Of a stretch of DNA of 35,689 nucleotides, positions 34,088 through 35,353 are shown one piece after another. A model generated the notes under the pieces. The model was not told where the DNA came from. It searched no databases and saw only the letters and a list, made by a program, of their open reading frames with translations. Source of the stretch: an uncultured Pseudomonadota bacterium. GTDB taxonomy: Bacteria; Pseudomonadota; Gammaproteobacteria; Methylococcales; Methylomonadaceae. Location of the stretch: positions 1 to 35,689 of the forward strand of contig CAIXED010000009.1 of NCBI GenBank assembly GCA_903918375.1. The letters run 5' to 3'. Position numbers and translations under genes: made by a program. Every line of letters begins with the position of its first letter. The first letter of the stretch is position 1.

Positions 34088-35353
34088 TTACCAACCTAAA
34101 CTCAAACCAATTTTAATCGCGTTATTCTGGTAAGTAGAGGAACCCAAAGATCCCAAATAGCCAGCATTAAGATAAATCCCTTTGATGGTTTTATAACTAA
34201 TACTGGCATCAAATGAGCCCATATCAATCGGCATACCAAGATTATTTAATGCATATAACTGACTGGGGGTGTTTAAGTTGTAAATGGATTGCAGAATATG
34301 AGTGTCGAAACTGCGTGAATATTGAATCTTCAAAGCTGGCGTAATCGTGCCTGATTCCAGATAAAAATCGTAAGAGGTTTTTACTCCGCCAGACAAAGAC
34401 TTAAAACTGACATTGGCTTGCTCAAAACCAAGCGCTGAGTTACTCGCCCCATTTTCACTATAAGCATTAAGTTGTCCAGAAATGATGTTACCGCCAATTG
34501 ACGGCGCTATTTTCAAGCCACCTGTTTGGAACAGATTACTGACCGACAAACTGCCAAACGCAACATTAGCGGTGCGGTTACCAAAAATTAACTGCTTATC
34601 AGTTGTTGAGTAGCGACTATTATCAAAAGCAACATCGCCATACCCCGCTAAACCATCAATAAACCAATCTTTAAACGGTTGGTAGCTAGCATAAAAACTA
34701 CCGGTAGTTTGGTGGGATTTAGTTTGGCTACCCAAATCATCAATTTTAGTGCTGTCGCTACCGTAACCAAACGCAACACCCACTATAGAATCGGTGCGCA
34801 ATTGATAGTCAATACCTGCTGTTGTGCCTTGTGAATTAAATTTATTTTTATTGCCGCTGGCATCAAATGAACCAAAATCAAAATTGCCGCTGGTCCACAA
34901 AGAAAACTTTGACGATTCAAAATTTGATTGATTAACCGTGGTTAAATGATCTTGAATGTTATTAATTTGCTGATGACTAAATCGTTGTAACGCAAAAGTT
35001 TGCGCTGCAATTTGTGCCTGGACAGTTGAGTCCAGCGATGTATCGGTATTGGTATCGGTAGTGGTTTTAAGCCTTAATATCAGATGTAGCGTGCTTTCTT
35101 TTTGAATATTGTAATCAGCCATTGTTCGACCATCTTCAAGCTGTTTGCCTGCAAAAATCAAGCGTTGTTGATCGGGCGGTATGCCTTCTTTATCCTGAAT
35201 TTTCGCCTTAACATTTTCAATTGAGTCAGAAGCTTCGACATCTAAAGTAATAGTTTTGCCAGTCAGGGTTTTGACAAAAATTTGCATACACCAAGCCACA
35301 GACGGTGTTAATAACAAGCAGCTTAGTAGCAGTCGGACAAGGATTGATTTCAT
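34088..35353 (-). CDS. Ubiquitin-autotransporter fusion: secreted ubiquitin passenger with outer-membrane beta-barrel
   Basis: This 421-residue protein has four parts. (1) Residues 1-22 are a Sec signal peptide ([15 protein letters not shown]...SVAWC). (2) Residues 23-96 are ubiquitin. They match human ubiquitin at 67 of 74 positions, with changes E16D, P19A, T22S, L56M, S57A, V70I and R74K. All seven lysines and Leu8, Ile44 and His68 are kept, but Gly75-Gly76 are replaced by Thr-Thr. (3) A Thr/Asp linker and an amphipathic helix (about 107-145, [15 protein letters not shown], then INNIQDHL) resemble the helix that plugs autotransporter barrels. (4) From about residue 149 come ~273 residues of alternating beta strands ending KIGLSLGW, with a terminal aromatic residue as outer-membrane barrels need. 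ATG at 35353 is chosen over an upstream in-frame TTG (35419) because it starts the signal peptide. Surface display of ubiquitin is inferred. Confidence 0.93.
35060..35287 (-). other. Ubiquitin domain within the autotransporter gene
   Basis: This is the exact 76-codon span aligned to eukaryotic ubiquitin. The predicted signal peptidase site (Ala-Trp-Cys before Met) would leave the native Met1 of ubiquitin as the mature N-terminus. The context VAWC is not a lipobox because of the Trp. The last two positions are Thr-Thr in place of Gly-Gly, so as encoded it lacks the C-terminus needed for activation by an E1 enzyme. Confidence 0.95.

Follow-up and report, generated by a model that had tools for sequence, protein, structure and literature searches.

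Ubiquitin, a hallmark of eukaryotes, has its known functions inside the cell. In classical autotransporters, an N-terminal passenger is threaded to the outside and held there by a pore helix; to our knowledge, the passengers are enzymes or adhesins, mostly beta-helical. The closest bacterial ubiquitin, BfUbb of Bacteroides fragilis, is secreted, lacks the terminal glycines and is active against other B. fragilis strains, and its authors think that no immunity gene is needed (PMC5705921, in part). It is 63% identical to human ubiquitin and inhibited ubiquitination in vitro (PMC3352274, in part). Plant-parasitic nematodes secrete a ubiquitin with a signal peptide and a short C-terminal extension, which is removed in the plant (PMC5705921, in part). 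A review of ubiquitin evolution names bacterial ubiquitin-like proteins and, in the excerpts available from it, mentions neither 'Bacteroides' nor 'outer membrane' (PMC11354881). Among the matches listed from open-licence PubMed Central, titles and abstract starts contained no report of a ubiquitin-autotransporter fusion or of a phage-borne secreted ubiquitin. Here we report a gene of an uncultured member of the Methylomonadaceae in which ubiquitin and an autotransporter barrel are joined in one reading frame. The window, that is, the whole stretch of DNA analysed (35,689 bp), is contig C9 of an 82-contig, 2.79 Mb assembly (completeness 99.79%, contamination 0.36%).

Gene and domain architecture

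The frame has an ATG start and a TAA stop and is open throughout. The following features were assigned in the window:

34088..35353, minus strand: complete gene, 421 aa, signal peptide, ubiquitin, linker and autotransporter barrel (ORF translation and Pfam)
35288..35353, minus strand: signal-peptide-like residues 1-22 (simple hydrophobicity scoring)
35066..35287, minus strand: ubiquitin domain, residues 23-96, without di-glycine (Pfam and alignment to human ubiquitin)
34910..35065, minus strand: linker, residues 97-148, Thr/Asp-rich, then helical (translation and AlphaFold)
34925..35026, minus strand: long predicted helix, residues 110-143, where the autotransporter pore helix sits (low-confidence AlphaFold, pLDDT about 30-38)
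34091..34909, minus strand: autotransporter beta-barrel, residues 149-421, C-terminal Trp (Pfam, PDB profile search, AlphaFold, Foldseek)
6945..28487, plus strand: type VI secretion genes, outside the gene and given as context only (seven proteins tested)
35549..35689, no strand: terminal 141 bp of the contig, which recur unchanged at the end of contig C81 and include a hairpin-like repeat (sequence comparison)

The first-pass annotation had read a signal-peptide-like start, ubiquitin, a linker and a Trp-ended barrel in one minus-strand frame, and this is borne out by the open reading frame and by Pfam. On the 421-residue product both domains score far above their cut-offs (102 and 112 bits): PF00240 covers residues 25-95 (102.4 bits, E 1.2e-29) and PF03797 residues 152-399 (profile positions 1-254 of 255, 111.8 bits against a cut-off of 26, E 5.9e-32), scores that exclude a chance match. 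The claimed identity to human ubiquitin (67 of 74 residues) was reproduced by alignment, the changes being E16D, P19A, T22S, L56M, S57A, V70I and R74K, followed by TT in place of GG; residues 1-74 of the human reference match the PDB alignment. In the putative signal peptide, a 12-residue hydrophobic core has a Kyte-Doolittle mean of 2.71, with a net charge of +1 ahead of it. The peptide abuts ubiquitin Met1 and ends in AWC, so that the -1 residue is Cys; it is Ala in the other nine scored lineages, the divergent Pseudoalteromonas row among them. An alternative TTG start at 35419 would give a product of 443 aa, and the ATG at 35353 makes the hydrophobic stretch N-terminal. The G + C content is 37% in the ubiquitin part, 40% in the barrel and 45% in the whole window, and no match to a sigma-70-type promoter was found upstream of the gene.

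Failure of the barrel prediction for residues 149-421 had been named as a result that would speak against the fusion, and here Pfam, a PDB profile search and Foldseek agree on a barrel, with AlphaFold at low confidence. An 11-row profile of related barrels found EstA (3KVN) at 1.5e-28 and 9OQA at 1.8e-14 among PDB sequences; with the window barrel as a single query, EstA was a weak match at 0.012. AlphaFold gave no usable model from two sequences (mean pLDDT 28.7) and a mean pLDDT of 47.3 from five. In the five-sequence model, ten-residue blocks from 21 to 90 in the ubiquitin part reach 60-84, and long consecutive strands begin at residue 150, with block values of 38-68 up to residue 300 and values below 50 for residues 298-421. 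Foldseek on this low-confidence model ranked AaaA (9OQA, a Pseudomonas autotransporter) first (E 4.7e-10, query TM 0.47, rmsd 14.6), with ubiquitin chains after it. The C-terminal W is preceded by alternating hydrophobic residues, as read from the sequence.

The protein resembles BfUbb in being a eukaryotic-type ubiquitin of a bacterium, with a putative signal peptide directly before Met1, no Gly-Gly and no known use in conjugation. Unlike BfUbb, which is stand-alone, released and about 76 residues long when mature, its ubiquitin continues through a helical linker into a barrel, and it is closer to the eukaryotic protein (67/74 against 63% overall; PMC3352274, in part). With type Va autotransporters such as EstA (3KVN) and AaaA (9OQA) it shares an N-terminal passenger, a C-terminal PF03797 barrel, a terminal aromatic residue and a predicted helix between the two, but the passenger is a single ubiquitin. 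The order of signal peptide, ubiquitin and C-terminal extension recalls the secreted ubiquitin of nematodes, which, however, is eukaryotic and without a membrane anchor, whereas the window protein is bacterial and has a barrel (PMC5705921, in part).

The window gene lies near the type VI secretion (T6SS) genes, whose identified products are the sheath, Hcp, a ClpV-like ATPase, VgrG, VasE/TssK, DotU/TssL and IcmF/TssM, and near genes for ExbD, ExbB and TonB. Between exbD and tonB, exbB is seemingly split into two overlapping frames (186 and 109 aa, window positions 32162-33029), through either a frameshift or an error in sequencing. The opposite end of the window encodes an Ig-like adhesin that is truncated by the contig start and at least 1,683 residues long. 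The fusion gene has no recognised phage neighbour in the window.

Sister copies and constraint

Over residues 1-421, a sister gene on contig 417 of MAG CAIZCB01 is 91% identical. Ahead of it lies another autotransporter, identical at 270 of 280 positions to one on contig C39 of the window's own genome, and after it come relatives of the pair of small genes found behind tssM in the window (182/192 and 99/101 identical). A second, diverged fusion copy in the own genome lies on contig C81 beside a histidine kinase and a response regulator. All three diverged copies, from two assemblies, have the same ubiquitin-linker-barrel junction, with substitutions on either side. A chimera or assembly error, raised in the first-pass annotation as the result that would undo its reading, was not found: the gene is present at 91% identity in another MAG and as a diverged copy on C81. 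The location close to the end of a contig, in a draft assembly with 82 of them, would suit an artificial join with eukaryotic DNA, but the presence of the same fusion in another MAG and at another locus, with one junction and substitutions on both flanks, makes such a chimera extremely unlikely.

As assembled, the C81 copy begins at a GTG four codons ahead of Met1 and lacks a signal peptide, and one of the two own copies is thus not exportable in this form. In place of the 5' end, the C81 copy has a 141 bp segment that matches the end of contig C9 exactly, and the hairpin-like repeat flanks the copy on both sides in one orientation (L050 4111-4138 and 5452-5479). The loss of the signal peptide is uncertain because the junction coincides exactly with the end of the shared 141 bp and could be a branch of the assembly graph. 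Other autotransporters of the own genome (L050 1-930 and L011) seem to have a common barrel start and different passengers; contigs C39 and C81 both end at this common barrel start, and shuffling of passengers is possible.

In the three pairs formed by the window, C81 and G137 copies, dN/dS was 0.110, 0.102 and 0.115 for the barrel and 0.10-0.18 for the linker. For ubiquitin it was 0.131 and 0.109 in the pairs with C81 and 0.558 (about 0.56) between window and G137, the last value being based on just three nucleotide differences. Changes are thus mostly silent in the barrel and, for two of the three comparisons, in ubiquitin. Between window and G137, 3 of 222 sites differ in ubiquitin and 78 of 819 in the barrel (Fisher p 6.9e-6), and this closeness of the ubiquitin segments suggests, from the sequence comparison, a recent exchange of the segment; in the first half of the barrel, the window gene is likewise closer to C81. 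Human and yeast ubiquitin differ at fewer residues than the two own-genome copies, window and C81, which differ at 8 of 74; the constraint on ubiquitin is therefore real but looser than in eukaryotes.

Other secreted ubiquitins and their phage context

Ubiquitin (PF00240) is rare in the whole genomes scanned. It was found in the own genome (1/1), in 4/237 family genomes (one match partial), in 5/301 of the order, in 5/369 of the class (two above the cut-off) and in 2/398 of the phylum, as well as in the genus of G044 (1/23), the family of G289 (2/38), the family of G455 (1/1) and the class of G724 (1/78). The own genome and earlier matches recur in several of these nine scans, and 14 control genomes were silent in all. 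The weak class matches L014-L016, each below the cut-off, look like chance; as read by eye, they lie in a protein resembling formyltransferases, in one rich in Ser and Ala and in a short frame. G724, the sole match among its 78 class genomes, scores 26.6 bits, its frame lacks a signal-like start, and it was likewise set aside. In a same-genus genome (G111), a partial ubiquitin frame without signal peptide lies at a contig end (L005 1486-1626), with divergent sequence at residues 5-9 and from residue 40 onward. The barrel has matches in 66/237 family genomes, never above 40% identity outside the ubiquitin fusions; at the fetched loci, the readable passengers of these family barrels differ.

The gene had been taken for a single oddity; it is instead one of several lineages of secreted ubiquitin, nine including that of the window, plus a diverged one in Pseudoalteromonas. 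IMG/VR scans turned up a ubiquitin relative on 23 distinct contigs (9 + 22, 8 in common), and on seven of these it has a signal-like start. Start codons for the signal-like starts ending at Met1 in the other lineages were picked by hand. The loci outside the own genome include the following:

G044: ubiquitin with a 21-residue tail and a signal-like start
L006/L007: signal-like start, ubiquitin and about 120 residues of unknown type
L013: signal-like start, ubiquitin, fibronectin III and IPTL-CTERM (23.0 bits against 20.8; NCBIfam 20.1 against 20.5, just under)
L048 5932-6672, Ruminococcus albus 7 plasmid pRUMAL01: signal peptide, ubiquitin and about 150 residues
L054 2905-3231: signal peptide and complete ubiquitin ending in RGG
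L058 2352-2768, also L059 and L060: signal peptide, ubiquitin and IPTL-CTERM (L058, 28.4 bits)
L062: signal-like start, ubiquitin and truncated barrel (PF03797 24.4 bits against 26, just below the cut-off)
L063 2890-4332 and L064 1640-3082: full signal peptide-ubiquitin-autotransporter gene (barrel 63-65 bits)
L102 3959-: giant Ig-like adhesin of a Pseudoalteromonas plasmid, with signal peptide and diverged ubiquitin at its start (PF00240 56 bits in the first 247 residues)

Other proteins that pair both domains, which the first-pass annotation had proposed to look for, occur at full length on the IMG/VR contigs L063 and L064. The IPTL-CTERM proteins L013 and L058 are similar to the window protein in that a signal peptide and ubiquitin are predicted to be bound for the envelope, but they have a C-terminal sorting peptide where the window protein has a barrel. 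After cleavage, the product of L054 would keep a complete ubiquitin tail. The pRUMAL01 gene belongs to a series of small, functionally uncharacterised genes, the last of which encodes a dockerin protein. Sixteen IMG/VR contigs without a signal-like start were set aside (L055-L057, L061, L065-L076); nine of them (L068-L076) are viral contigs with a common small ubiquitin-like protein that lacks a signal peptide and is 41-43% identical to the query. A search with the pattern Ala-Met-Gln-Ile-Phe-Val-Lys returned six contigs, none of them new. In 50,697 named phage records, no match to the window ubiquitin, the L063 protein, the L058 protein or the G137 fusion was obtained at E 1e-5.

According to PHROGs, which matched 18 of 20 frames (both unmatched ones on the contig of L063, L115), the L063 gene lies downstream of genes for a tail terminator, a minor tail protein and a tail assembly chaperone and upstream of a tape measure gene. 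It is followed by a second, partial copy of the chaperone-region frame, as read by eye, and it looks, from these sequence neighbours, like an extra gene carried by a phage. PHROGs also placed L058 (L117) beside genes for the small and large terminase, portal, head protease and major head protein, and L054 (L116) beside baseplate and tail fibre genes; L062 has a phage-type DNA methyltransferase as neighbour.

The barrel trees were built from at most 30 fetched barrel loci, out of 66 genomes with a match. For the first tree, 13 rows (>90% identical) were removed, L110 and L112 had no usable frame, and L035 and the truncated L062 were left out; in it, a single own barrel on a long branch fell into the L063 group, though support was weak (80/29). 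The maximum-likelihood tree of 23 barrels, from which two long-branched own barrels are omitted, places the window type with autotransporters of Rhizobiales (86/100) and the L063 type with Ruegeria (100/100). Forcing the five ubiquitin-bearing barrels into one clade cost 34.9 log units and was rejected (p-AU 0.0027), so the barrel fusion probably arose at least twice. At least two origins, one of them on phage-like DNA, are likely, not certain, on these barrel sequences with their long branches and thin sampling.

With one row for each of nine lineages (the Pseudoalteromonas row was dropped for its offset), Phe4 and Lys63 are kept in 9/9, Ile44 and His68 in 8/9, Leu8 in 7/9, Lys48 in 6/9 and Val70 in 5/9, and Glu16 is replaced by Asp in 6/9. 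Gly75-Gly76 is intact in only one of the nine (L054), and in eight of the nine secreted-ubiquitin lineages the chain runs on beyond ubiquitin. In the window protein, residues 75-76 are TT and the chain continues, so that the C-terminal Gly-Gly of a modifier is absent. A search with the E2 enzyme profile (PF00179) gave no match in the own genome and was uninformative, control genomes being equally silent. Among the single-ubiquitin PDB chains in the matches listed (60 of 79 sequences), the top score of 142.3 bits fell to the ubiquitin-L40 chain of 4adx/4v8p, the latter of which we take to be from a ciliate, compared with 140.3 bits for human-type ubiquitin; this gap is too small for the donor to be named.

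Proposed role and rival readings

The window gene probably encodes a type Va autotransporter with a horizontally acquired eukaryotic-type ubiquitin, displayed on the cell surface and non-conjugatable, that serves as a contact ligand or decoy toward another cell; we infer its export, exposure, contact role and partner. The precursor would be exported by Sec, with removal of the signal peptide at or just before ubiquitin Met1, and the barrel would be inserted via the Bam pathway. The passenger would then cross via the pore, and ubiquitin would remain at the cell surface with the helix-linker as its tether. By analogy, a barrel of this type would be expected to place its passenger on the surface. 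Since the displayed ubiquitin lacks the C-terminal Gly-Gly and leads on into the linker, activation by E1 and conjugation are not expected, and it would work solely by non-covalent recognition of its folded surfaces. As partner, a grazing or host protist is somewhat more likely than a rival bacterium, given that identity to eukaryotic ubiquitin is higher than in BfUbb and that the surfaces around Phe4 and Ile44 are kept, and a decoy of eukaryotic ubiquitin enzymes is possible.

Ubiquitin folds fast, and this could hinder its passage through the barrel. If transit were blocked in this way, ubiquitin might stay unexported, as a folded module in the periplasm or in the pore of an outer-membrane protein. 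The N-terminal passenger, the position of the predicted helix and the barrel, however, follow the classical autotransporter order, and two other lineages end their secreted ubiquitin with IPTL-CTERM, a signal with a role tied to the envelope surface, which points the same way; retention is improbable. More weight is due to an antibacterial role, in which displayed or shed ubiquitin would kill or inhibit related bacteria and the barrel would deliver it on contact. The analogy is with BfUbb, whose activity has been tested: its signal peptide is cut at Met1, the terminal glycines are absent and a 76-residue synthetic protein is potent (PMC5705921, in part). The T6SS cluster near the window gene and the Ig-like adhesin at the far window end also speak for it. 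BfUbb, however, is free and without an anchor, and a bacterial target would not obviously demand 67/74 identity to human ubiquitin when BfUbb has 63% (PMC3352274, in part). Such a role is rather unlikely in itself, and it ranks close behind the reading with a eukaryotic partner.

A gene without any role, as a chance fusion or in decay, might be suspected from the rarity of PF00240 (4/237 family genomes, one match partial) and from the C81 copy without a signal peptide, but silent changes dominate the barrel and linker (dN/dS 0.10-0.18) and two of the three ubiquitin pairs, the fusion is kept in two MAGs and it recurs with a different barrel, which makes this very unlikely. Beyond the preferred reading of a displayed, contact-active ubiquitin, we tentatively put forward a wider and more doubtful idea: that bacteria and phages have a scattered class of surface ubiquitins with a signal peptide and interchangeable anchors (a barrel of at least two origins, IPTL-CTERM or adhesin-like C-termini), mostly without Gly-Gly and so bindable only. 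Phages would spread some of them among tail and head genes, and lysogeny could give ubiquitin-coated cells that engage ubiquitin-binding proteins of grazing or host protists.

If true, ubiquitin worn outside on a membrane anchor, a design also carried by phage-like DNA, would give bacteria a new interface with eukaryotes or with bacterial rivals, and the window fusion would offer a natural test of whether autotransporters pass a fast-folding domain.
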